Source: a virus
IMG/VR virus record: IMGVR_UViG_3300047480_000725
Span: 1 to 27,574 of that record
Length of the DNA: 27,574 nucleotides
Reading direction: 5' to 3' (one strand)
How positions within the stretch are numbered: position 1 is the stretch's first letter; each line of letters starts with the position of its first letter. Below the pieces are notes generated by a model. The model saw only the letters and a program-made list of their open reading frames with translations, was not told the DNA's origin and ran no database searches. Positions 1 to 27,312 of this stretch are shown piece by piece. A program made the position numbers and the translations under genes.

Positions 1-1225
1 AGTTCCAAGCATTATCAATAGAATTATTTAAATCTATAATTGATTGATCATATGCATCTATTGTATCTTCTTTATCTTGTAATTTATTTGCTGTGTTTAT
101 AATTGCAGCATTATGAGCAGTTGTTTTAGTTGTTAAAGTTTGATTATGAGTTGTTAAAGCTGAATTAGCAGAATTATATTCAGATACTTTAGTGTTACGT
201 ATTGCTAATTTAGTATTATAATCTTGTTGTGCAGCCGTTTTTGCTGCCTGCGCTGCAGACAAATTATCTAATTGTTGTTGTGTTGCACCTGATCCATAAG
301 AAAATGTATTAAGGTTACAACTAAATCCTACTCCCCATCCACCAGTATAAGCACATCCTGCACCAGTCCACCCACCTGGAATTGACCATCCGAGATGATA
401 AGATCCTGGGCCACCGCCGTTATACCACCATATTTCTACATCTAAAGTTTTATCTTGGCTAACATTATATATTGGAGAATAGGCGCTCCATGTAGCGCCC
501 TGTTCAACCCAATTGTCTACAGCAAGGTTGCCATCTACATACATTCTAAATCCGTCGTCTGTGTATCCAGCAAAGTATACGTTTGTCCAATCTGATGGTA
601 CTGTAATTTTGCCAGTAAATTTAACAATAATGTCTTCGTAGTATCCGCAAACTGGAAGATTCATGGAGTTTGAATTCCAGACACCTGTACATATGACAGA
701 GCCAGGTACCGCTATATGCTGCCCGTTAACATAGCCATCTCTTAATAGATGATAAACAGTATATTGTAACCCTGCTGATCCAGCATTGTTTACAGCATTT
801 TGAGCAATTTGAAGGTTAGTATTTGCTGTTGCTAAATTTACTGCTGATATATCTAATGCTGATTGAGCATCATTTTTTTCTTGTAGTTTTGTAGCCACAG
901 TAACAGTCTGTCCATCTACTGAAGTTTGAGCCAAAAGCTTTTCGTTTAATGCTGTGGCCTCTGCTTCTACTGCTGAATTGTAAACATCTGCAGCATCGTC
1001 TCTCGCATCCTTTGCGTCTACTGCATCGTCATATTTAGATTCCGCTATGTCTATTAATGATTGAAATTCTGTTTTATAGTTTAAGTCAGCTACGCTATCA
1101 TTTAATTCTTGTATTTCTTGAGCGGCTAAACTTAATGGATCATCGCTATAGGCAGGAGTTATAAATAGCCAACCAAAGCCTAAAATGGCGGCTAAAGATA
1201 ATCTCCATGCTTTAGTCCTAGTCAA
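1..1225 (-). CDS. Secreted PA14-like domain protein with coiled coils (C-terminus beyond window)
   Basis: The frame stays open from a TTG start at 1225 to the window edge, giving about 408 codons. The TTG is chosen because AGGAG lies six bases upstream. The first 27 residues look like a signal peptide: charged start (TRTKAWR), hydrophobic core, then PAYS before DD, which fits a signal peptidase I site after Ser27. Residues 30-150 are Ala/Asp/Glu-rich and look coiled-coil. Residues about 153-285 resemble a PA14/GLEYA carbohydrate-binding fold, with the segments GYTDDGFRMYVDG, AVDNW and GSYHLGW. A second coiled coil follows from about residue 313. An export signal is uncommon on a phage protein. 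It may act on the host surface or be a virion adhesin carrying host-like features. The PA14 call rests on motif resemblance only. Confidence 0.7.
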   Translation of the reverse strand, partial: MTRTKAWRLSLAAILGFGWLFITPAYSDDPLSLAAQEIQELNDSVADLNYKTEFQSLIDIAESKYDDAVDAKDARDDAADVYNSAVEAEATALNEKLLAQTSVDGQTVTVATKLQEKNDAQSALDISAVNLATANTNLQIAQNAVNNAGSAGLQYTVYHLLRDGYVNGQHIAVPGSVICTGVWNSNSMNLPVCGYYEDIIVKFTGKITVPSDWTNVYFAGYTDDGFRMYVDGNLAVDNWVEQGATWSAYSPIYNVSQDKTLDVEIWWYNGGGPGSYHLGWSIPGGWTGAGCAYTGGWGVGFSCNLNTFSYGSGATQQQLDNLSAAQAAKTAAQQDYNTKLAIRNTKVSEYNSANSALTTHNQTLTTKTTAHNAAIINTANKLQDKEDTIDAYDQSIIDLNNSIDNAWN

Positions 1226-1236
1226 CTATAACTCCT

Positions 1237-1253
1237 AAACAAACGTTTTGTTT
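1237..1253. repeat. Inverted repeat in the 5' leader of the PA14 gene
   Basis: AAACAAA (1237-1243) pairs with TTTGTTT (1247-1253) around a three-base centre, with AACGTT at the core. It lies between the predicted transcription start (near 1256) and the Shine-Dalgarno sequence (1231-1235). It could be an operator; the loop is too tight and the stem too AT-rich for a convincing terminator. Confidence 0.4.
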
Positions 1254-2006: not shown

Positions 2007-2423
2007 TTATTTAATTTTAATTGTTTTGGGTTTCTTTTCTTCTGGGATATTTCGTTCCACAAAGATGTTAAGAATACCGTCTGCCATTTCAGCACGATCC
2101 ACCTCCATATACTCTCCAAGAGCAAAGGTCCGTGTGAACTTTCTGGTTGCGATACCCTTATGGAGAACTTGATTTTCATTCTCCTCGGCTTTCTCACCTT
2201 TAACTATTAATACTCCATTTTCTACCGAAACTACTACCTCATTCTTGCTAAATCCAGCAAGCGCAAGTGATAGCTGATAGGTATCCTCGTCAACCTTTAC
2301 CAAATTATATGGTGGGTAAGACTGATGAGTAGCCTCACGATAGATATTGGAAAATCGGGTATAGTTATCAAACCCGATAAAAAATGGATCTCTAAAAAGA
2401 TCCATAGCAAATTGTGTTACCAT
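2007..2423 (-). CDS. Small heat shock protein, Hsp20/IbpA family, 138 aa
   Basis: This is an ATP-independent holdase that keeps unfolding proteins soluble in the cytoplasm. The alpha-crystallin domain spans about residues 37-130: PPYNLVKVDEDTYQLSLALAG, then FSKNEVVVSVENGVLIVKGEK, and the late strand DGILNIFVERNIPEE. A C-terminal IxI-like anchor (TIKIK) is present. The start at 2423 is set by a strong AGGAGG five bases upstream; the longer frame to 2507 would run back into the upstream purine gene and lacks that site. Hsp20 genes are well known in T4-like phages of aquatic bacteria, where they are thought to help virion or scaffold folding. It has its own promoter-like sequence just upstream (2479-2507). 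Confidence 0.93.
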   Translation of the reverse strand: MVTQFAMDLFRDPFFIGFDNYTRFSNIYREATHQSYPPYNLVKVDEDTYQLSLALAGFSKNEVVVSVENGVLIVKGEKAEENENQVLHKGIATRKFTRTFALGEYMEVDRAEMADGILNIFVERNIPEEKKPKTIKIK

Positions 2424-2478
2424 TATTCCTCCTTTAAGCGAATAAGTTAATATAGGCCCCATTTGGCGACCTGAATTA

Positions 2479-2507
2479 ATTGTATCAAATTCTTTTGTTT
2501 GATTCAA
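2479..2507 (-). promoter_or_regulatory. Promoter for hsp20 (TTGAAT-17-TACAAT, extended -10)
   Basis: On the minus strand -35 TTGAAT (2502-2507), a 17-base spacer and -10 TACAAT (2479-2484) preceded by TGA make a good housekeeping-sigma promoter. The TGA is also the stop codon of the upstream IMPDH/GMPR-family gene. The -10 context TGATACAATTAA matches those at 1263 and 18230. Confidence 0.65.
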
Positions 2508-3543
2508 GTACCGACAAGGAGGATACCTCTATGTAGGTGGAATTATCTCTAAAGTGTTTTAAATCTGGAGAACCGCAATAAGACATACCACTTCGTATAT
2601 TATTTTCAAGCATCTGCAATGAATTAAATACTGGACCTCTTGGAGAAATTTTTCCAGAAGCCCCCTCAACATGAAGTGCTTTGAGATCATTTACTGCATC
2701 TGGATTTTGATTTATTTGGGCTTCTCTAGAAGCCAATCCTCTAAACACATGTTCACCATTAATATCCTTTTGACATTCATCATGTCCTGAAAAAAATGAA
2801 CCCATCATGATACCACTTGCGCCAGCAGCAAATGATTTAACGGCATCTCCATTATTTTTAATTCCTCCATCTGCAACAATTCCATTTATTTCATCATCTT
2901 TGACCTTATCATATATATCCATTATTGAAGCCAAAGTAGGAACACCAAATCCTGTGACTATTCTAGTTAGGCATGCCGCTCCTCCACCTATTCCAACCCT
3001 TATAGAGTCAGCACCAGCATCCATTAACGATTTATATGCCTCATAAGATGAAACATTTCCACACATTATATGAGTATCTTCAGAAACATTTTCTCTTAAT
3101 TTCCTAACAGATTCAACTGCTATATCTAGATGTCCTAATGCAGTATCAATAAGGATTATTCTTATTCCTCTTTTATTTAAATCTTCTAGCATGCTAACAT
3201 GATCAACCTCATGTGTAGAAATACAGAACCCAATGTTTTTGGGATCATTATTAAGTTCGATAGTTTCTTTTAGCTGTAGCATTCTATCATCAAGTGGTGA
3301 GAGTCTTGGTATAAATCCCACGCCTCCAAACTGAGCTACCTTGCTTATCATTAAGGAACTAGATATAAATTCCATTGGAGCCATAAATATTGGCACAGAT
3401 AATCTTAAAACAGATTTTGGCTGCTTTAAATTTCCTATTACAGACTCTATTATTACTGAAGACCTAGTAGGAATACTAGATTTTTTTGGAACAAGTAGTA
3501 TGTCATCAAAACATAAATTGCTGGTATTTAAATCTTTTATCAT
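2485..3543 (-). CDS. IMP dehydrogenase / GMP reductase family enzyme, 352 aa
   Basis: This TIM-barrel purine enzyme works on IMP, XMP or GMP through a cysteine thioimidate. The N-terminal FDDILLVP signature (residues 12-19), the phosphate-binding loop and catalytic Cys191 in GIGGGAACLTRIVTGFGVP, the GIVADGGIKNNGDAVKSFAAGA segment and the late SGMSYCG segment are all present. There is no CBS pair, and the length matches GMP reductase (about 345 residues) or a CBS-less IMPDH. The mobile flap (about residues 272-303, with an EG near HVEGASGK) is short, and I cannot decide between dehydrogenase and reductase. The start has GAGGAGAATAATG. The Shine-Dalgarno begins two bases after the CCA of the upstream tRNA, so translation depends on a tRNA-containing transcript. 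Confidence 0.88.
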   Translation of the reverse strand: MIKDLNTSNLCFDDILLVPKKSSIPTRSSVIIESVIGNLKQPKSVLRLSVPIFMAPMEFISSSLMISKVAQFGGVGFIPRLSPLDDRMLQLKETIELNNDPKNIGFCISTHEVDHVSMLEDLNKRGIRIILIDTALGHLDIAVESVRKLRENVSEDTHIMCGNVSSYEAYKSLMDAGADSIRVGIGGGAACLTRIVTGFGVPTLASIMDIYDKVKDDEINGIVADGGIKNNGDAVKSFAAGASGIMMGSFFSGHDECQKDINGEHVFRGLASREAQINQNPDAVNDLKALHVEGASGKISPRGPVFNSLQMLENNIRSGMSYCGSPDLKHFRDNSTYIEVSSLSVLESNKRI

Positions 3544-3553
3544 TATTCTCCTC

Positions 3554-3629
3554 TGGTGCCCCTAGTTGGATTCGAACCAACGCTTTTACGATTTTAAGTC
3601 GTATGCCTCTACCGCTGGGCTATAGGGGC
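3554..3629 (-). tRNA. tRNA with UAA anticodon (Leu by codon, class I shape)
   Basis: Seven-base-pair acceptor GCCCCTA/TAGGGGC, anticodon stem TACGA/TCGTA with loop CTTAAAA, T-arm GTTGG-TTCGAAT-CCAAC, discriminator A73 and an encoded CCA make a full 76-base tRNA. The anticodon is UAA, which reads UUA leucine. The variable region is only five bases (AAAGC), whereas bacterial leucine tRNAs normally carry a long class II variable arm. The D-stem has three good pairs plus a C-A mismatch. Charging identity is therefore uncertain. It lies between ahpD and the purine gene, seven bases after ahpD in reverse order. Confidence 0.9.
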
Positions 3630-3636
3630 GGTCTTG

Positions 3637-4146
3637 CTAAGAACTAAGTATTTTGGCTAAAGCATTGACAGTTGCAGCAATTCTTCCTATATCCCTTAAT
3701 TGCTCTACAGAAAATCCTTCTTGCTTTAGTGTATCATAATGTGCTTTCACACAAAAATGACATTTACCAATAATTGAAGACGCAAGCGAATAGGCTTCAA
3801 AATTAGCCTTTGTGGTGCCCCCGTGTGATGAAATGGCATTCATTCTTAATTGTGCTGGTAAGCCTTTTAAATTTGGATCATCAGTCATCTCAAGATATGG
3901 ATACCAAACATTATTTTGTGCCATAATTGCTCCAGCAGTCATTGCTGCATTCTTTTCTACTTCATTAGTACATGAAGCGGCAATAAAAGCAATGAGCTTC
4001 CCGTTACCAGTAGCAAAAGAAGCTGCAAGAGCTAGGTGGGTAGCTAGCTCTTGGTCAATTGTGCTACGATTAATGACAGCATCTAAATTCAATTTAATAT
4101 CTTTAGCATATTCTGGCAAAGATTCTTTTAGTTGCTCAACCCACAT
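3637..4146 (-). CDS. ahpD: Alkylhydroperoxidase AhpD, 169 aa
   Basis: In mycobacteria AhpD is a lipoamide-dependent reductase that regenerates AhpC, taking electrons from lipoylated SucB and Lpd. The redox site KCHFCVKAH gives Cys129, Cys132 and His136, and Glu117 is in FEAYSLA; this matches the mycobacterial Glu118-Cys130-Cys133-His137 set with a one-residue shift. The N-terminus (LPEYAKDIKLNLDAV) and RMNAI..HGGTTKANFEAYSLA also match the actinobacterial family, and the length (about 175 usual) is normal. The start codon overlaps the ahpC stop in TAATG, so the pair is translationally coupled. No lipoyl protein or Lpd is encoded here; those would have to come from the host. Nothing looks broken. 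Confidence 0.95.
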   Translation of the reverse strand: MWVEQLKESLPEYAKDIKLNLDAVINRSTIDQELATHLALAASFATGNGKLIAFIAASCTNEVEKNAAMTAGAIMAQNNVWYPYLEMTDDPNLKGLPAQLRMNAISSHGGTTKANFEAYSLASSIIGKCHFCVKAHYDTLKQEGFSVEQLRDIGRIAATVNALAKILSS

Positions 4147-4718
4147 TAAATTGTATCTCCGCCCAATGGTCTATTGCAGGCACACAACTCTCCTGTTTGT
4201 AACGCATCAAGAATTCGTAGTGTCTCTTCTGGGCTTCTTCCAACATTAAGATTGTTTACAGTTACATGCTGAATGATATTTTCTGGGTCAACAATAAATG
4301 TAGCACGTAGTGCAACTCCATCATCAGTTAAGATACCTAGTTGTTCAGCAAGTCCAGTATAACTTTCTTCTGTTTCACTAAATACCCAGCCACGTACTTG
4401 ATCTGCAAAAGACCATGAATTTGTCTTCTTCAAATCTTCATGAGCATTACGCCAAGCAAGTTTGCAAAACTCATTATCTGTTGATCCTGTAAGCAACACT
4501 GCATCACGATCATTAAAATCATTTACAAGCTTGTCATACGCAACAATTTCTGTTGGACAAACAAAAGTAAAATCTTTTGGATAAAACATAATAATCTTCC
4601 ACTTTCCTGGGAACGATTCCTCAGACAAAGTTTCAAAGACATCATCAGCTGCATCTAGTCTTCCTGGCTTTACACCAACAACTCTAAATGGATCTAATTT
4701 GTATCCTACTGTTTTCAT
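4146..4718 (-). CDS. ahpC: Peroxiredoxin AhpC (actinobacterial type), 190 aa
   Basis: AhpC reduces hydrogen peroxide, organic peroxides and peroxynitrite in the cytoplasm. The peroxidatic site DFTFVCPTE places Thr51 and Cys54, with the supporting Arg138 in ALRATFIVDP. The C-terminal GELCACNRPLGG gives Cys179 and Cys181, corresponding to the Cys174/Cys176 pair of mycobacterial AhpC; this double-Cys tail is the form that works with AhpD rather than AhpF. The extent (190 residues) is full length. AAGGAG lies upstream of the ATG with good spacing. It is preceded by a 180-base leader with clear hairpins and followed directly by ahpD. Finding this pair inside a phage genome, between tRNAs and a purine enzyme, is unusual. 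Confidence 0.96.
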   Translation of the reverse strand: MKTVGYKLDPFRVVGVKPGRLDAADDVFETLSEESFPGKWKIIMFYPKDFTFVCPTEIVAYDKLVNDFNDRDAVLLTGSTDNEFCKLAWRNAHEDLKKTNSWSFADQVRGWVFSETEESYTGLAEQLGILTDDGVALRATFIVDPENIIQHVTVNNLNVGRSPEETLRILDALQTGELCACNRPLGGDTI

Positions 4719-4898
4719 TTTTCTCCTTATATATAAGTGCCAGTCACGAAGTCCGTTTTTACGGAAGAATCAACTACTGGCTCTGTTCCCTAGATAAAAG
4801 TTTAATGGACACCTTCGACTGGTGCTACCCATAACTAGTACCCTTGTTGTTTTCGGGACAGTTGTACCTACCCTAAGTCGAACTCTGAATAGGCCTTG
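4719..4898 (-). other. Structured non-coding leader between tRNA-Asn and ahpC
   Basis: These 180 bases carry no credible gene. A two-level hairpin is visible: outer stem GCCAGT (4739-4744) with ACTGGC (4776-4781), inner stem TCCGT (4752-4756) with ACGGA (4761-4765) and a four-base loop. A second hairpin pairs CACC (4810-4813) with GGTG (4821-4824) around a seven-base loop. The first hairpin ends about 10 bases before the Shine-Dalgarno of ahpC. It could be a regulatory leader, a small RNA or a tRNA-processing spacer. I recognise no known riboswitch and no complete tRNA in it. Confidence 0.5.
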
Positions 4899-4971
4899 CT
4901 GGACCACCAGGGCTCGAACCTGGGACATTAGAGTTAACAGCTCTACGCTCTGCCAACTGAGCTATGGTCCA
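4899..4971 (-). tRNA. tRNA-Asn(GUU)
   Basis: Acceptor TGGACCA/TGGTCCA, D-arm GCTC-AGTTGGCA-GAGC, anticodon stem TAGAG/CTCTA with loop CTGTTAA (anticodon GUU), variable ATGTC, and T-arm CCAGG-TTCGAGC-CCTGG make a complete 73-base class I tRNA. Discriminator G73 agrees with asparagine. CCA is not encoded; CAA follows. Confidence 0.95.
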
Positions 4972-5062
4972 ATACTGGTTAGCGGCGCAGCCAGTCTGCG
5001 TGTTGTTCCTACATAGTCGTATGATCTATACCTAAGTATTACAGGGACGGTTCTACCGCATG
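4972..5062 (-). other. Spacer between tRNA-Arg and tRNA-Asn with two hairpins
   Basis: No gene is seen. CGCAG (4986-4990) pairs with CTGCG (4996-5000), and CGGT (5048-5051) pairs with ACCG (5055-5058). The segment would be removed when the tRNA precursor is processed, and the hairpins may guide that or stabilise the fragment. Confidence 0.35.
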
Positions 5063-5135
5063 CGCCCCTGAAAGGAATCGAACCTCTGACGCAGGCCTTA
5101 GAAGAGCCTCGCTCTATCCGCTGAGCTACAAGGGC
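5063..5135 (-). tRNA. tRNA-Arg(UCU)
   Basis: Acceptor GCCCTTG/CAGGGGC (one G-U pair), D-arm GCTC-AGCGGATA-GAGC, anticodon stem AGGCT/GGCCT with loop CTTCTAA (anticodon UCU, codon AGA), variable GCGTC and T-arm AGAGG-TTCGATT-CCTTT are all present in 73 bases. Discriminator is G and CCA is not encoded. AGA is a favoured codon in AT-rich phage genes. Confidence 0.94.
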
Positions 5136-5150
5136 ATCGCCTAAGTATAC

Positions 5151-5477
5151 TTAATTGTTATCAAATTTGTCAATATCTTCGATAGGGATTATTCCTTTTT
5201 TTAAAGCTATCTCAAAACCTTCTGGGGTCAAATGAAACGTAGCCTCTAAATTTTCATCATATTCTACATCGAGTAGCCCGTCTTGATATAACTCAATTAA
5301 AGAATTATCTACATATTGCATATGAGACTCCCATAATTCTGGAGCAAGCTCTTTTGTCCTTATTTCATCTATCTCAAAAACAATTTCTCCATTTTCATCA
5401 AGCCCAGCTTCTCTTATCGCACCTATATCTAAGTAGTGCTGAAGTCTAGCTAAAAATACCTCATCATCTTCTTGCAT
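5151..5477 (-). CDS. Acidic protein of unknown function, 108 aa
   Basis: I do not recognise this protein. It is strongly acidic, begins MQEDDEVFLARLQHYL and has a segment LTPEGFEIALKKGIIP, which resembles the beta-wing turn of winged-helix proteins (LTPEG is common there), with ESHMQYVDNSLIELYQDGLLDVEYDE before it. A small winged-helix or antirepressor-like protein is possible but unproven. The start at 5477 has AAGGAG eight bases upstream, and that site falls only a few bases after the 3' end of the CAU tRNA. The stop lies 15 bases from tRNA-Arg, so the gene is embedded in the tRNA transcript. Confidence 0.75.
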   Translation of the reverse strand: MQEDDEVFLARLQHYLDIGAIREAGLDENGEIVFEIDEIRTKELAPELWESHMQYVDNSLIELYQDGLLDVEYDENLEATFHLTPEGFEIALKKGIIPIEDIDKFDNN

Positions 5478-5489
5478 GTGTTCTCCTTG

Positions 5490-5563
5490 TGCACCAGGTA
5501 GGACTTGAACCTACGACTACCCGATTATGAGTCGGGGGCTCTGACCAACTAAGCTACTGGTGC
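5490..5563 (-). tRNA. tRNA with CAU anticodon, probably Ile2 (AUA)
   Basis: Acceptor GCACCAG/CTGGTGC, D-arm GCTT-AGTTGGTCA-GAGC, anticodon stem CCCGA/TCGGG with loop CTCATAA, variable TAGTC, T-arm GTAGG-TTCAAGT-CCTAC and A73 are present; CCA is not encoded. G1-C72 pairing excludes an initiator. C4-G69 and C5-G68 are pairs known to favour the lysidine synthetase TilS, and the T-loop matches E. coli Ile2, so reading AUA as isoleucine is more likely than elongator methionine. Confidence 0.93.
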
Positions 5564-5574
5564 TTAGCTGGTAA

Positions 5575-5823
5575 TTATACATTTGATTGATCCAATTTGT
5601 CAATGCTGTCTTCAACAATACTTTGAACATATTCAGAAAAATGTTTTCTTATGCTTCCTGGCGGTCTAGATCCAGACTCATTCCATATTCTTCTATATTC
5701 AATAATGTTGTCAAATGTCGTAGGGCAAACCTTTATGCCGTGGTACTCTTTTAGTCTGACTGGTAGCGGCACATGTTTTCCACAGCACTTACATTCTTTA
5801 GCCTTATCTTGGTATATACTCAT
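5575..5823 (-). CDS. Small cysteine-containing protein, 82 aa
   Basis: Unrecognised. The N-terminal half holds CKCCGKHVPLPVRLKEYHGIKVCP, with Cys11, Cys13, Cys14, His28 and Cys33-like residues that could bind zinc, while the C-terminal half is helical and charged. It begins with an ATGA overlap with the terminase large subunit stop, so it is translated directly after TerL and may assist packaging or be a nuclease cofactor. It is shorter than HNH endonucleases and lacks their HH/N/H motif. The last codon lies 12 bases before the CAU tRNA. Confidence 0.75.
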   Translation of the reverse strand: MSIYQDKAKECKCCGKHVPLPVRLKEYHGIKVCPTTFDNIIEYRRIWNESGSRPPGSIRKHFSEYVQSIVEDSIDKLDQSNV

Positions 5824-7616
5824 AGTATCTGCATTCTTTCTATTGTGTCCAATGTATCTCTTAGGTCCTGAGGCATTCTTGGTGCACGAATCATATTCAT
5901 CCTTATCTCTTCTTCTGGCTCTCTATTATACTTTATAGAATCATATGTATGAATTTCAACTTCTTTAAGTATATCATTTTTGCTCATGCTTATAGCATTA
6001 TAAATTGCGCCACAAACAGCATCAGCCAAATCTTTGGACCCCTTTCTTGGGTGGTCAACTTTATCCCTCATTATTTTTAGCTGCAGCAATTCATCTATCA
6101 ATAATTTAACATGAGGTCCGTGTAATCTTTCTTCTAACACAACCATTGCCATATCGTCATAATGTTTTTTCCCAACCGATAAAGTTTCTGTATTAATTCC
6201 ATATTGTTTTAACTGTTGCATCATGTCATGAGAATTCCATCTATCAAATGTACATAGTCTGATATTAAATCCTCTAGTCCTTAAAGACAATATATAATCT
6301 TTTACTTCTGTGAAATCTACTGACTTATCTGGAGTGGGAGTCCAATACCTCACAGCATCTACCTCAACTATTGGGGCTGGCTGTGAGTAAGTATCTGTTA
6401 CCTTGACATTAACCCACTTTTGAACGTGAGCTAAGGCAACGGCGCAATGGTCGTGCTTTTGAGCTAAGTCTACGTGTATAAAGTATTCTTTATCTGGATC
6501 TGCAGCAAACCAGTCTTGCAGCCTTCCAAAACTATCTATGGCTAAAGATAGATTACTAAATGCCTTTTCAATTTTTTCTCTAGATTTAAAAAACGCATCT
6601 ACAGCTTCTGGTGGCATACATGCAAATCTTGATAATGCGTCTGGCATATTTTTATAAAACTCTACCTTAAAATTCTCTATTGTTTTAGTTGGATTGATTT
6701 CCCATGTAGGTCTTTTTAAAGCATACACTTTTGGTATTGTGTATGATATTATATGATCTTCTTCCCACTCAACAGTAACCTCATTACCTTCAGTGCCATC
6801 TGGTAGGTCCTCTTCCATTTTTAAAGTTTTACTTCTAATAATTGTTTCTTTTTCTGCTATGACAGAGTCATAAAATTTTTGAATTGGATCATTTTTAAAG
6901 CGTGGGAATGAAAGCAATATAACCTTACCATAGTCTGGAAAACGAGAAACAACAGATCCTCTATACATATCATAAATCGCATCAGCAGTTTTTGCTTGGT
7001 CGTGCCCAGTCGTATTCTCTGTAGCGAAGCCTGAAATTTCATCCAGAATAACAGCAATTACGTTATAGCCTTCGAAAGCTTCTCTTTCTGAGTGTCCAGA
7101 ATAAACATTAACATTCTTTTCAAATCTGATTTCTGATGCCTTTGGATCATATTTACCAGCAAACCACGGGGACCTTTCGACTCTTGTTTTAAAGCCTTTG
7201 AAAAAAACATTGTTAGCTTGCTGTGCGTTAATAGCAATATTTATTATATCAATTGTATCTCCTGGAGGCTTTCCATAATATGTTGCTGGATCCTTAAGGC
7301 ATAATAGTAAATATACTATATACGATACTGATATAGTTGAGCAGTAATCTTTACCGCTACCTTTTCCTAACTGAGCAATTACTTCGTTACATGTTTGTTT
7401 GTAGCGACGGACACCTTCTTCTTCTCCGAAAAGCTTGATTAGGGTTGACTCTTTATAGATCTGGCTGCTCTTCTCAATGAGTGTATACTGGTACTCCGAT
7501 AATGGAGGGAGCCCAAGGTAATCTGGGCTAGTAACGAATGTTCGTAAATCGACTGGTCTTTCATCAAATTCCTCTCCGTCTAATATATCAATTAGATCAT
7601 TAAAATTAAGATCCAC
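5820..7616 (-). CDS. terL: Terminase large subunit (ATPase-nuclease), 598 aa
   Basis: This is the motor that pumps DNA into the prohead and cuts the concatemer. The ATPase half has Walker A GKGSGKD (residues 84-90), Walker B AVILDE (188-193) and motif III VILLSFPR (232-239). The RNase H-like nuclease half has HVDLAQKHDHCAVALAHV (Asp383), LCTFDRWNSHDM (Asp458) and KDLADAVCGAIYNA (Asp532). Length is normal for the family. It overlaps the small subunit by 11 bases and the downstream small gene by four. It is intact, so the genome probably packages its own DNA. Its place downstream of the replication genes rather than beside the capsid genes is a less common layout. Confidence 0.95.
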   Translation of the reverse strand: MDLNFNDLIDILDGEEFDERPVDLRTFVTSPDYLGLPPLSEYQYTLIEKSSQIYKESTLIKLFGEEEGVRRYKQTCNEVIAQLGKGSGKDYCSTISVSYIVYLLLCLKDPATYYGKPPGDTIDIINIAINAQQANNVFFKGFKTRVERSPWFAGKYDPKASEIRFEKNVNVYSGHSEREAFEGYNVIAVILDEISGFATENTTGHDQAKTADAIYDMYRGSVVSRFPDYGKVILLSFPRFKNDPIQKFYDSVIAEKETIIRSKTLKMEEDLPDGTEGNEVTVEWEEDHIISYTIPKVYALKRPTWEINPTKTIENFKVEFYKNMPDALSRFACMPPEAVDAFFKSREKIEKAFSNLSLAIDSFGRLQDWFAADPDKEYFIHVDLAQKHDHCAVALAHVQKWVNVKVTDTYSQPAPIVEVDAVRYWTPTPDKSVDFTEVKDYILSLRTRGFNIRLCTFDRWNSHDMMQQLKQYGINTETLSVGKKHYDDMAMVVLEERLHGPHVKLLIDELLQLKIMRDKVDHPRKGSKDLADAVCGAIYNAISMSKNDILKEVEIHTYDSIKYNREPEEEIRMNMIRAPRMPQDLRDTLDTIERMQIL

Positions 7617-8648: not shown

Positions 8649-8934
8649 CTGGTGACTTTCTTACAGCAGTAATAATAGCCTTAGTTCCTTCCCACCTTAC
8701 TCTACCCTTACATCCAACGTTGTATTTAGTATCTCCTTCATATTCAGAAGAAATGGCATATGCATATCCGTGAACTTCAAAATCGCTAGCTAAACTCTGA
8801 TTGCCATTAATAAATATTCTCCATACTAATGGATCCCCTTGCTCTGCCTTTGTATTAAATCTTAATATGATTTCATCATATGGCTTCATCCATCTATCTT
8901 TTACAATATGCAATATATATTTAATCTTTTTCAT
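8635..8934 (-). CDS. Hypothetical beta-rich protein, 99 aa
   Basis: I do not recognise this protein. It begins MKKIKYILHIVKDRW, has no Cys-metal motif or signal, and its middle (LVWRIFINGNQSLASDFEVHGYAY) and end (VGCKGRVRWEGTKAIITAV) look like an alternating beta sandwich. It is co-translated with the kinase-nucleotidyltransferase gene upstream (ATGA overlap) and with the tiny HTH gene downstream, which argues for a real small phage protein. Confidence 0.75.
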   Translation of the reverse strand: MKKIKYILHIVKDRWMKPYDEIILRFNTKAEQGDPLVWRIFINGNQSLASDFEVHGYAYAISSEYEGDTKYNVGCKGRVRWEGTKAIITAVRKSPDEAI

Positions 8935-9692
8935 ATACCCATCTCCTTACGCTTTTGAGTAGCTGAGATTGCATGAATATCTGCCCCTAAATCTACTTGC
9001 TCAATTTTATATCCCACATCACGACCATAGACAATGTTAGTAATGTTTGGTAATCTTAATACCATCGCTCCATCTATAAATTCATCTTTAGCGATATATC
9101 CCTTAACCTCATTAAATGTTAGTGGATCTTTTTCGCTTGTATTATAAGTATTACGAACTCCTAGCAACACTTGATCAGTTCTTTTGCCAGCTTCCTTGTA
9201 AAGGGCATGGTGTCCCTCATGCCAAGGCTGATACCTTCCAAGCATAAGTGTAGTTGGAGCAGACCAATCGTGCAGCCCATAGTATTCAATAACTGATGTT
9301 GCTTTTTCATCAGGATCTTTACTGTGGTCTAAAAACATTATGTCATAAGAGGAAGGATCCTGAAACATCTTATTTGTATCCTCAAATCTTCCTTCTTCAA
9401 TTGTATTCATCCAAATAAGGATGTCTGGTTGTCCAAACGCTGAACGAGTTAATTCTGTAGGACATACAAAGTCTACAATTACTGGAGCGACTCCCTGCTT
9501 AGCAATTAGTCTTGCCATTTCTCCCATGCGACGAGCCTGCTCAATTCTATCTTCGTGAGTAAACCCTAAATCTGAATTAACTGTTGCACGAACCTCATCT
9601 GCATTTAAATGTATTGCATTAATACGTTCTTTTAGAGCTTTTGCCAGCTCTGTCTTTCCAGATCCTGGAAGCCCAATAATTTGGATAATCAT
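8931..9692 (-). CDS. CysC-like kinase fused to nucleotidyltransferase, 253 aa
   Basis: Two catalytic modules share one chain. Residues 1-125 resemble APS kinase (CysC): Walker A GLPGSGKT (7-14), LNADEVRATVNSDLGFTHEDR (29-49) and RRMGEMARLIAKQG. Residues about 145-253 are an HxGH-type nucleotidyltransferase: GRYQPWHEGH (152-161) and the terminal ISATQKR (242-248), as in NMN or phosphopantetheine adenylyltransferases. A bifunctional NAD, cofactor or sugar-nucleotide enzyme is likely. Order (kinase first) is opposite to NadR, which is transferase then kinase, so it is not simply NadR. Substrates cannot be read. Both active sites look complete. It overlaps the RuvC-like gene by four bases (ATGA) and its downstream neighbour by four. 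Confidence 0.85.
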   Translation of the reverse strand: MIIQIIGLPGSGKTELAKALKERINAIHLNADEVRATVNSDLGFTHEDRIEQARRMGEMARLIAKQGVAPVIVDFVCPTELTRSAFGQPDILIWMNTIEEGRFEDTNKMFQDPSSYDIMFLDHSKDPDEKATSVIEYYGLHDWSAPTTLMLGRYQPWHEGHHALYKEAGKRTDQVLLGVRNTYNTSEKDPLTFNEVKGYIAKDEFIDGAMVLRLPNITNIVYGRDVGYKIEQVDLGADIHAISATQKRKEMGI

Positions 9693-23979: not shown

Positions 23980-26900
23980 CTAGTATCCGAAGCCTGGGAA
24001 GAATGGAGTCCCTCCGCCCCCAAAGAACGGTGGGAAGAACGGCGGGAAGAACGGCGGGAAGAATGGCGGGAAGAACGGCCCAAAGAATGGCGGGAAGAAT
24101 GGTGAAGGAGATTTAAAATATGGTGGGAAGAACGGCGGGAAGAATGGCGGGAAGAACGGCGGGAAGAACGGAGATGGAGCACACTCTATACATGAAGCAT
24201 TAGCAGCCGCAGATAAAGCTGCTGCTGATGTTGATCTATAAACAGTTTTAACTCTATTGGTCGATGCTCCTTCGGTAGTATCTGAAGGTATAGACCCAGT
24301 AGTTTCATATGGACCGCTTACGGATGGCATTGATGTATAACATCCACTCAATACATTACACCCTGATGTTCCAATATAATATATTGTTATAGATGGGAAA
24401 TATGGTGGGAAGAATGGAGGGAAGAACGGCGGGAAGAACGGTGGGAAGAACGGTGGGAAGAATGGTGGGAAGAACGGTGTTGGAACACAATTTACGCATG
24501 AAGCATTAGCAGCTGCTGATAAAGCTTCTGCATAAGTTGATCTATAAACTGTTTTAATTCTAGCGCTAGAAGATCCTTCTATAGTATCGGTTGGCATTGA
24601 TCCTGTTCCAGTAAATGGACCGCTTGCACTTGGAGATGATGAATAGCAACCACTTAAAACATTGCAAGTAGAGGTTCCAACATAATAAGTTATCTGATTC
24701 TGTGACCATCTGGCATAAAAAGTAATATTAGAAGTAGGTGTAAAACTTCCCCCATCAGAAACTTGATTTAAATAGTCGCCAGATGGGCTGTCCCTCCAGT
24801 AAAGGAATGTGTACCCAGACCTAGTTCCTGGAGATGGCGCAGTGTGTGAAGTCCCAGAATTAAATGGTCCAGTTGTTCCTCCGCCGTTGCCACCGTTAGC
24901 GTTCCAAGTTACTGTGTATTGAACTACTGACCATTGAGCGTAAATGGTTACTGATCCAGATGGAGTGAATTGAGTGTTTGCTAAACCTAAAAATGTACCT
25001 CCGCTAGGAGCTGTATACCATCCATTAAAAGTGTAACCATCCCTACTCGCAGAAGGTAAGTATACTGAAGATCCTGCATTTATTGTTTCTGGTGATCTGG
25101 CAGTACCTCCGTTAGCATTATAAGTAACAGTATACTGAGACACAGACCATCGTGCATAGAAGGTGATTCCTGAATATGGTGGATTGAATGTTCCTCCATC
25201 AGAAACTTGATACGCATAGTCTCCAGACACGGAATCTCTCCAGTAAAGGAATGTGTACCCAGACCTAGTTCCTGGAGATGGCGCAGTGTGCAAGGATCCA
25301 GCATTTAATGGTCCAGTTGTTCCTCCGCCGTTGCCACCGTTAGCGTTCCAAGTTACTGTGTATTGTTTAATTGACCATGAAGCATAAAGAGTTATATCGC
25401 TAGTGGGCTGATATTGTGTTGGGGTAGGCCCGCTTCCACCAACAAAAGATCCAGTACCGTTTGGACCCGTATACCATCCATTAAAAGTGTAATCTGCGTT
25501 TGCATTTGGAGTTGGAAGAGTTACTGTTCCTGGATACTGTACTGATATTGAAGAAGGAGTTCCTGCTCCTACCCCATAGTTAAAAGTAACAGTATATGTT
25601 TTTGCAACCCATTGTGCATAAAATTGAAAAGAGTAGGTGACTACCCATGGATCTCCAGCATTTAATAATATAGGGTCTCCTCCGCTTGCGGGATTTCTCC
25701 ATCTAGTAAAATCATAATTTTCTCTTGCAGAAGGTGTTGGAGCGTAAATGGTTGTACCAGATATTACAGTATCAGAAGTAGAGCTTGAGGTTCCATCATT
25801 TCTATTCCATGTTACTGTGTACTCTATGCCTGTCCAGCTAGCATAAAGTGTAATGTCGTCTGTTGGAGTATATGATGTTGGTGTTGGGCCTCCGCCGCCA
25901 ACAAAGGTGCCGCCGCCGTTTGCTTCCGTGTACCATCCATTAAATATATATCCCTCTCTAGAAGTTGTTGGAAGAAAAACTGAATCTCCATCATTAACAA
26001 TATCATCTTGAACAATTGATCCGCCTAACTCTTCATATGTTATTGTGTATTGTAATTCTGTTATGGGACCAATTGTGTTTGAATATGCTGGCAAGCTCTC
26101 AGCGCCATTAAATGCAATAACAGATCCAGAAACTGTATTTGAGGTTGTGCTGGTAAATGTGTAATCAAATGATATATCTGTAGTATACCCTGTAGAAGAA
26201 GGATGATATGCCAAAACGGTTCCTGCATTATTATTTAACTCTATTTGATATCTAAATTCAGTTGGTTCATTTGTCCATTCCCCACTTGAAAGAGTATAGG
26301 TTGAATTCTTTTTATTTTCTACACCATTTGTAAGAGTAAGAGTTGGATTAGTTATAATTTCTGGCTCATCCACAGTTGTTTCTAAATCTACGTATGCGTA
26401 ATCTGTTGTCTTGTCTTCTGTTTCTGTATACCCATCAGTTCCCACAACTTCTAGTTCAACACTATAAATTTTATTTGGTTCTATTAGTGGATCAGATAGT
26501 GTGTATGTAGTCGTAGGAGTTGGAATTGTTACAGATAAAACTAAAGTGTCTAACTCGTCATATACGTTTAACTTTTGAGAAAAAATATCTAGGTCTTCAT
26601 TTACTGTGTTTCCATTTACTAAGGCGGTATAAGACCAGTTAAATGTTGCACCGTCTGCTTCTTCATCATAAACTATAAAGCTTGCTATTCTAAAATCAAT
26701 TCTAGGCATTAAGGCTGTAGTCTCGTAAGAGTTTTCTAATCCGCCTGGAGTTTTTGCATCTACCTTACCTCTAAACTTATAACCTTGTCTAGTTTTAGTT
26801 TTAGATATAACTGGTCTAGATGCTGCATTTGCATCTGATGGGAATTTATTTGTAGACTGAGACTCTAAATATTCTTCATAGATTTTAGTAAAATCATATA

Positions 26901-27312
26901 GTGCAGACCATGTTCCTCCTGGTGCAAGCTCTTGAATTCTTAATCTAAATTCTTCTGGCTCTTCTGTCCAAGATCCTCTTGTAACATACATGCTTGACCC
27001 ATTAATTGGACTATCAATGGTCTCAAAGCCATCTGGCCAAATATAATAAAGCTCTGGATATGGGACTTTAGGAGTAGGTAAATTTGTTCCAGAAAATATT
27101 CTAATCCAAGTTCTAACACCATTAACTATTGAGTCTAAGCGCCAAGCGCTTTTTATTTTTAACCAACCATTTATAACCCATGGATTTTCACTTGCGTCAG
27201 AGTTTGCTTCATCTTGAGGTGAGGCTTTTCTCCAAATACTTTTCATTTGGATCCAACCGTTTATATTATGGCTGCCAGTATCGGTAGGACTAGCCTTTCT
27301 CCACCAACTCAT
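23980..27312 (-). CDS. Giant repeat-built fibre/adhesin-like protein, 1110 aa
   Basis: This is probably a tail-fibre or spike with host-binding parts. The N-terminus has repeated short tryptophan motifs (WWRKASP, GWIQMKSIWRKASP, GWLKIKSAWRL), familiar in phage tail proteins. Residues about 90-415 look like Ig-like beta domains (SGEWTNEPTEFRYQI and SWTEEPEEFRLRI). Six Listeria-Bacteroides/Flg_new-like repeats follow (about 418-872), each opening YTVTWNANGG-like and ending ITFYARW-like. Then come two four-Cys modules (about 873-945 and 971-1046), each followed by a Phe-Phe-Pro-Pro array, ending FFGGGGTPFFPGFGY. No signal peptide or catalytic motif is seen. The start follows the upstream stop directly (TAAATG). 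Confidence 0.88.
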   Translation of the reverse strand: MSWWRKASPTDTGSHNINGWIQMKSIWRKASPQDEANSDASENPWVINGWLKIKSAWRLDSIVNGVRTWIRIFSGTNLPTPKVPYPELYYIWPDGFETIDSPINGSSMYVTRGSWTEEPEEFRLRIQELAPGGTWSALYDFTKIYEEYLESQSTNKFPSDANAASRPVISKTKTRQGYKFRGKVDAKTPGGLENSYETTALMPRIDFRIASFIVYDEEADGATFNWSYTALVNGNTVNEDLDIFSQKLNVYDELDTLVLSVTIPTPTTTYTLSDPLIEPNKIYSVELEVVGTDGYTETEDKTTDYAYVDLETTVDEPEIITNPTLTLTNGVENKKNSTYTLSSGEWTNEPTEFRYQIELNNNAGTVLAYHPSSTGYTTDISFDYTFTSTTSNTVSGSVIAFNGAESLPAYSNTIGPITELQYTITYEELGGSIVQDDIVNDGDSVFLPTTSREGYIFNGWYTEANGGGTFVGGGGPTPTSYTPTDDITLYASWTGIEYTVTWNRNDGTSSSTSDTVISGTTIYAPTPSARENYDFTRWRNPASGGDPILLNAGDPWVVTYSFQFYAQWVAKTYTVTFNYGVGAGTPSSISVQYPGTVTLPTPNANADYTFNGWYTGPNGTGSFVGGSGPTPTQYQPTSDITLYASWSIKQYTVTWNANGGNGGGTTGPLNAGSLHTAPSPGTRSGYTFLYWRDSVSGDYAYQVSDGGTFNPPYSGITFYARWSVSQYTVTYNANGGTARSPETINAGSSVYLPSASRDGYTFNGWYTAPSGGTFLGLANTQFTPSGSVTIYAQWSVVQYTVTWNANGGNGGGTTGPFNSGTSHTAPSPGTRSGYTFLYWRDSPSGDYLNQVSDGGSFTPTSNITFYARWSQNQITYYVGTSTCNVLSGCYSSSPSASGPFTGTGSMPTDTIEGSSSARIKTVYRSTYAEALSAAANASCVNCVPTPFFPPFFPPFFPPFFPPFFPPFFPPYFPSITIYYIGTSGCNVLSGCYTSMPSVSGPYETTGSIPSDTTEGASTNRVKTVYRSTSAAALSAAANASCIECAPSPFFPPFFPPFFPPFFPPYFKSPSPFFPPFFGPFFPPFFPPFFPPFFPPFFGGGGTPFFPGFGY
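23983..24175 (-). repeat. 12-bp coding repeats for FFPP array, distal
   Basis: A GC-rich 12-base unit (plus strand gggaagaacggc and variants) encodes Pro-Phe-Phe-Pro. It holds two runs, one of four FFPP and another of four FFPP, broken by YFKSPSP and FFGP, then FFGGGG. Third positions vary between units, so it is drifted rather than freshly expanded. It is far more GC-rich than the rest of the window. Confidence 0.9.
24393..24480 (-). repeat. 12-bp coding repeats for FFPP array, proximal
   Basis: Six consecutive FFPP units ending YFPS, encoded by the same 12-base unit as the distal array. It separates the two cysteine modules of the fibre-like protein. Confidence 0.9.
24697..26058 (-). repeat. 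Six InlB/Flg_new-like protein repeats
   Basis: About 70-78 residues per unit; unit boundaries on the DNA are near 26058, 25825, 25600, 25365, 25140, 24921 and 24697. Each unit has the YTVT-W/Y/F strand, a G-Y-x-F-x-x-W turn (FNGWYT or FLYWRD) and an ITxYAxWS strand. Units 4 and 6 are near identical, while unit 2 is the most diverged. Confidence 0.85.
24794..25365 (-). repeat. Near-identical 128-bp direct repeats 444 bp apart
   Basis: Positions 24794-24921 and 25238-25365 match almost base for base apart from a short stretch near the middle. The 444-base spacing (148 codons) keeps the frame and equals two InlB-like units, so units 4 and 6 are a recent duplication or gene-conversion product. 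Confidence 0.85.

Follow-up and report, generated by a model that had tools for sequence, protein, structure and literature searches.

A complete and conserved AhpC-AhpD pair, a peroxidase and its partner disulfide reductase, was found on a phage contig, and the finding lies far beyond chance. The sequence analyzed, referred to here as the window, is a linear IMG/VR record of 27,574 bases and is a fragment. The preferred reading, to which a probability of roughly two in three is given, is that the two genes form an auxiliary cassette of a large actinophage that would provide a haem-free peroxidase during infection, draw on host reductant and keep the cell working until lysis.

Both genes are intact open reading frames on the minus strand. 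ahpC (4146..4718) encodes a 2-Cys peroxiredoxin of 190 aa, with the peroxidatic Cys54 in the motif PKDFTFVCPTE and the resolving Cys179 and Cys181 in GELCACN; ahpD (3637..4146) encodes a CMD/AhpD-fold disulfide reductase of 169 aa with the catalytic set Glu117, Cys129-His-Phe-Cys132 and His136. AhpC matched PF00578 (E=9e-21, 74.5 bits) and had M. tuberculosis AhpC (2bmx) as its best PDB match (E=2e-41); it scored below the equivalog cut-off of TIGR03137, the E. coli AhpF-dependent type (96.6 vs 272 bits). AhpD matched PF02627 (E=7e-10), NCBIfam TIGR00777 over 166 residues (E=2e-35) and, by profile, M. tuberculosis AhpD 1gu9/1knc (E=1.5e-33), scoring below the curated cut-off of TIGR00777 (121.9 vs 191.95 bits) and above that of the core-domain model TIGR00778 (28.9 vs 27.8). 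An AlphaFold model of AhpD has the all-helical AhpD fold (pLDDT 88.8; TM 0.82 to 1knc); the AhpC model was poor (pLDDT 62), added little and was not relied on. The initial annotation had described the active sites of both proteins as complete, and every residue that it named was found and is conserved: Cys54, Cys179 and Cys181, together with the PKDFTFVC motif and Arg138, are invariant in 80 unique viral AhpC sequences, and Glu117, Cys129, Cys132 and His136 in 79 unique viral AhpD sequences, 75 of which also keep the His130 present in the window. Judged by its residues, AhpC is a typical 2-Cys peroxiredoxin with peroxidatic motif, conserved Arg and C-terminal CxC, and biochemical activity of the pair is likely.

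The stop codon of ahpC and the start codon of ahpD share one base in the sequence TAATG (4144..4148, minus strand). Such an overlap couples the two genes, as had been proposed; of 142 viral pairs, 105 share the identical -1 overlap and another 13 have one of -4. A Shine-Dalgarno-like AAGGAG lies just upstream of ahpC (4721..4729, minus strand), and a similar GGAG precedes ahpD. The non-coding stretch between tRNA-Asn and ahpC spans 179 bases (4719-4897) in the window and ~32 bases in the closest relative, contig G015; a riboswitch or other RNA in this gap was considered and rejected, as an Rfam search gave only tRNAs.

Median dN/dS among the viral copies (Nei-Gojobori) was 0.084 for AhpC and 0.064 for AhpD, values that are approximate since many pairs approach saturation in dS; by this estimate the pair is under strong purifying selection. 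The GC and third-position GC (GC3) of the pair match those of phage genes, which is consistent with long residence in the phage. These results bear on the proposal that the two genes are neutral passengers, recently picked up and of no benefit. Such genes could sit in a hypervariable slot and be missing from many relatives, as is the case here. The proposal is made very improbable by dN/dS ratios that are low at dS near or above 1, by the invariant active sites and by retention of the tandem across several phage lineages, and it was set aside on the selection analysis.

Relatives of each protein are encoded by at least 590 IMG/VR stretches. Comparison of 150 loci, made up of the window's own region and 149 fetched loci (~125 distinct contigs; 126 by contig-name count), found both genes at 149. 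Among 50,697 deposited phage records there were no AhpD relatives, and the AhpC relatives had at most 36% identity to that of the window over most of the protein. Isolated ahpC genes are found elsewhere, in Microcystis viruses (PMC12542629), in Microcystis phage MaAM05 (prxU) and in Acinetobacter phage records; these peroxiredoxin genes either lie on viral records or were annotated in viral sequence data. A peroxidase role had been called unusual for a phage; this is true of cultured phages, with no AhpD in deposited records, but not of uncultivated ones, with many pairs in IMG/VR. When relatives were selected by DnaE instead, AhpC was present on the contigs of 6 of 36, a lower bound because the contigs are fragments, and AhpC is on this count dispensable. 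One locus binned as Bacteroidota (L151, JAURFW010000053.1) contains ahpC, two additional ORFs, ahpD and an ORF of 242 aa; it closely matches the viral locus L062 and is probably a misbinned phage contig.

In addition to the pair, the window encodes a terminase, DnaE polymerase, primase, DnaB helicase, a UvsX/RecA-like protein and other phage genes. Its terminase is 64% identical to that of Streptomyces phage Kenrey (~130 kb) and its DnaE 56% identical to that of BillNye (~127 kb), a Streptomyces phage of the Stanwilliamsviridae. By these two proteins the window is assigned to an actinophage whose nearest isolates are Streptomyces phages, a comparison made from a 27.6 kb fragment; the window phages differ from the Stanwilliamsviridae in being low in GC (~37%), uncultivated and bearers of ahpC-ahpD, a pair found in no cultured relative. 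WhiB was encoded on 22 of 31 pair-bearing contigs, as against one control genome among 14 (the actinobacterium Corynebacterium), and a homologue of the window terminase on 21 of the 31, so the bearers are mostly actinophages. The pair was seen on contigs of 97-118 kb together with phage terminases. Fewer pair-bearing contigs came from other phages: G039 (with UvsX and DnaB), G052 (168 kb) and the L062/L079 group, where the pair lies near ribonucleotide reductase. In most pair-bearing contigs the genes for WhiB and thioredoxin lie ~1-5 kb apart, a proximity that suggests a second conserved redox/regulatory cluster.

Two other ORFs of the window were inspected by eye. An ORF of 1110 aa (23980-27312), for which no PHROG match was found, has Listeria-type (Flg_new/InlB-like) repeats and a C-terminal FFPPFFPP run and coincides with a sharp change in GC skew; it is possibly an adhesin or tail fibre. 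An ORF on the minus strand that is truncated at the end of the window (1-1250) has a signal-like N-terminus, a coiled coil and a PA14-like stretch, and is probably a surface or tail protein.

The pair occupies a tRNA-rich slot beside the large terminase gene (5820..7616), its fixed neighbour; all features described here are on the minus strand. Two small conserved phage ORFs of 108 and 82 aa (5151..5823), found in relatives with and without ahpCD, frame tRNA-Met(cat) (5489..5563), which together with tRNA-Arg(tct) (5062..5135) belongs to the conserved flank of the slot. tRNA-Asn(gtt) (4898..4971) marks the upstream edge of the cassette and tRNA-Leu(taa) (3554..3629) its downstream edge, beyond which lie an IMPDH/GMP-reductase-like gene (2485..3543) and an Hsp20 gene (PHROG 432; 2007..2507). 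The order terminase, small ORF, tRNA-Met, usually ORF108, tRNA-Arg, other tRNAs or cargo, and ahpC-ahpD is common to the window and contigs G015, G002, G037 and G041, in all of which the pair is followed by further tRNAs or cargo and then by the IMPDH-like gene and/or Hsp20. The same terminase flank was found without ahpCD in G001, G003, G004, G005, G008, G009, G011 and G026; the ahpCD-negative stretches have Hsp20 in most cases and the IMPDH-like gene in some. As the flanks recur with and without the pair, the pair constitutes a separate cassette that may be present or absent, within a cargo region rich in tRNAs and variable in content, and both its fixed position beside the terminase and the empty sites in relatives support the cassette reading. 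The tRNAs, Hsp20 and purine enzyme had been taken together with the pair as a stress-survival block; this grouping does not hold, since Hsp20 and sometimes the IMPDH-like gene persist without ahpCD and the neighbours vary independently.

A tRNA gene lies within 1.5 kb of the pair at 87 of the 109 loci with enough flanking sequence; at L334 (G037) ~23 tRNA genes of many specificities stand directly upstream of ahpC-ahpD (4051-6405). The slot in ahpCD-negative relatives (L325, L327, L328, L331, L332) is often filled by other large ORFs of 280-690 aa, so that it has the look of a site for cargo in general. On the far side of the terminase, a phrog_10255 gene (8931-9692) combines a kinase with a nucleotidyltransferase and is NadR-like by architecture; it is placed elsewhere in G015, G002 and G003 and so moves within the genome.

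Because both proteins are of bacterial ancestry, the window could in principle be a join of phage and host DNA produced by assembly error, or contamination with prophage or host sequence. The flanks (terminase, small ORFs, tRNAs, IMPDH/Hsp20) repeat in independent metagenomes, however, the pair occurs on the long terminase-bearing contigs noted above, its GC and GC3 fit phage genes, and phage AhpC forms a clade of its own. With empty sites also found, a chimera or host contamination was in practice ruled out, its probability being negligible, and the assumption that the window is a single viral contig is borne out by the repeated synteny.

The ancestry of the pair was examined by identity and by phylogeny. 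In an unselected tblastn search of plasmids, the closest AhpC was that of Cupriavidus gilardii (64%), followed by Bradyrhizobium (57%), with Rhodococcus and Tsukamurella at 48-49%; for AhpD, Cupriavidus gave 49% and Rhodococcus 42%. Overall, AhpC is 60-64% identical to Burkholderiales proteins compared with 48-49% to actinobacterial ones. The closest genomic AhpD, apart from the phage-like L151, was from Burkholderiales (50-59%), in a scan based on sequence patterns, with possible bias. In the maximum-likelihood tree, phage AhpC forms one clade (98/90) beside proteobacterial proteins, and the AhpD tree has a main phage clade and, placed with Burkholderiales, a small phage group (L053, L062, L073, L151). 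The actinobacterial rows (Mycobacterium, Rhodococcus, Tsukamurella) form their own clade away from the phage proteins in both trees (AhpC 100/95; AhpD 100/100). The C-terminal double Cys of AhpC had been read as the mark of an actinobacterial form. That assignment is not sustained: Burkholderia AhpC has the CxC as well (PMC6626918), and both phage proteins, judged by the trees and by identity to plasmid copies, group with Burkholderiales-type proteins, far from Mycobacterium and Rhodococcus. That the pair is not mycobacterial-type is the one firm reading of its ancestry from these trees, which left out freshwater actinobacteria, Bacteroidota and Verrucomicrobia.

The AhpC-AhpD operon of Burkholderiales, as described in B. 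thailandensis (PMC6626918), is the nearest known cellular system by identity (AhpC 60-64%, AhpD 49-59%) and by tree, and shares with the phage pair the tandem ahpC-ahpD arrangement, a peroxidatic Cys with two resolving Cys at the C-terminus, and the CxxC of AhpD. The phage copies differ in forming a separate clade, in their one-base overlap, in an AhpC insertion of variable length at about residues 108-122, and in being carried by actinophages, not betaproteobacteria; oxyR, which adjoins several plasmid pairs, was not seen beside phage pairs. The AhpC/AhpD system of M. tuberculosis, working with SucB and Lpd (2bmx, 1knc/1gu9), provides the nearest solved structures and shares catalytic residues and folds; identity by structural alignment is 42% for AhpC and ~39% for AhpD, and the branch is a different one in both trees.

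Electron donors were searched for in the 31 contigs that carry the pair; these include several of 96-118 kb and one of 168 kb. None encoded a lipoyl-domain protein, and none a pyridine-nucleotide disulfide reductase (Pyr_redox_2) above cut-off; a phage-encoded lipoyl/Lpd donor was therefore rejected. On 20 of the 31, a protein of the thioredoxin family scored above the Pfam cut-off. One of these is G015, the closest relative of the window (terminase 96% identical), in which the gene lies ~13 kb from the pair. The initial annotation had assigned the donors, lipoylated SucB and Lpd, to the host. Their absence from the phage contigs stands, but the account was incomplete, as near relatives encode thioredoxin, a plausible second reductant. 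In B. thailandensis, AhpC is reduced preferentially by AhpD/SucB/Lpd and less efficiently by TrxC, the former being ~5-fold more efficient for cumene hydroperoxide, and either C-terminal Cys can resolve (PMC6626918). By analogy with these preferences, and given the counts of 0/31 for lipoyl/Lpd and 20/31 for thioredoxin, the host E2 and Lpd would be expected to act as the principal donor, with thioredoxin second.

The roles of the two donors could also be reversed, with thioredoxin, of the phage or from host Trx/TrxR, as the main reductant of AhpC in vivo and AhpD mainly a thioredoxin-like adaptor. The frequency of thioredoxin genes on the pair-bearing contigs, their presence in G015 and the reduction of B. 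thailandensis AhpC by TrxC in vitro speak for this arrangement. It is nevertheless rather unlikely, given the efficiency of AhpD/SucB/Lpd in B. thailandensis, the equal conservation of AhpD and AhpC and their translational coupling, the distance of the thioredoxin gene in G015 and its absence from other pair-bearing contigs, and the other proteins that phage thioredoxins serve.

In the preferred reading, of a cassette supplied with host reductant, H2O2 or an organic peroxide would oxidize Cys54 of AhpC, and Cys179/Cys181 would resolve the oxidized residue as a disulfide. Cys129/Cys132 of AhpD, aided by Glu117 and His136, would then re-reduce AhpC, and AhpD would in turn be re-reduced, with consumption of NADH, by Lpd and the lipoylated E2 of a host 2-oxoacid dehydrogenase. 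Thioredoxin (the host's, or in many relatives the phage's own) would serve AhpC as a secondary donor. The infected and probably peroxide-sensitive cell, and with it phage DNA and protein synthesis, would thereby be kept working until lysis.

The target may also be other than bulk peroxide: the pair could protect or tune a redox-sensitive phage or host factor (the WhiB iron-sulphur regulator, ribonucleotide reductase), remove peroxynitrite or act as a chaperone. WhiB accompanies AhpC-AhpD on 22 of the 31 contigs, in another group of phages the pair lies close to ribonucleotide reductase, and Burkholderia AhpC reduces peroxynitrite (PMC6626918). WhiB is common in actinophages generally, however (PMC6802176), so that its co-occurrence is expected, and the active sites are of the ordinary peroxidase type; an alternative target is accordingly considered improbable.

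Cultivation of freshwater acI actinobacteria required added catalase, and a KatG that was tested proved inactive (PMC7527133, PMC7308576). If such bacteria are the hosts, a haem-free peroxidase would be a sensible gift; it may be only a supplement, as all non-photosynthetic genomes examined in one of these studies had peroxiredoxin genes (PMC7527133). A broader proposal is offered tentatively and with considerable doubt: phages of catalase-poor, haem-auxotrophic actinobacteria such as acI may widely carry a haem-free peroxidase relay that was taken up from a betaproteobacterium-like source and runs on a host lipoate-dependent dehydrogenase, and infection itself would then raise the resistance of a peroxide-sensitive host to peroxide.

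Phage-mediated defence against reactive oxygen species (ROS) has been proposed for freshwater phages, many of them actinophages identified by whiB (Kavagutti 2019, PMC6802176), whose genes, like those of the window, were suggested to shield the infected cell against ROS. The main text of that study names ferritin, SOD, glutathione peroxidase, thioredoxin, glutaredoxin and Met/PAPS reductases, and does not name AhpC or AhpD. ROS-defence genes of phages are already on record there, and the AhpC-AhpD relay in its complete form is apparently a variant not yet described: such genes were previously known as single enzymes, and here a two-protein relay is conserved across many uncultivated phages. 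If the reading is true, phages would be direct players in peroxide handling, and it yields a testable prediction for hosts that rely on their neighbours for catalase.
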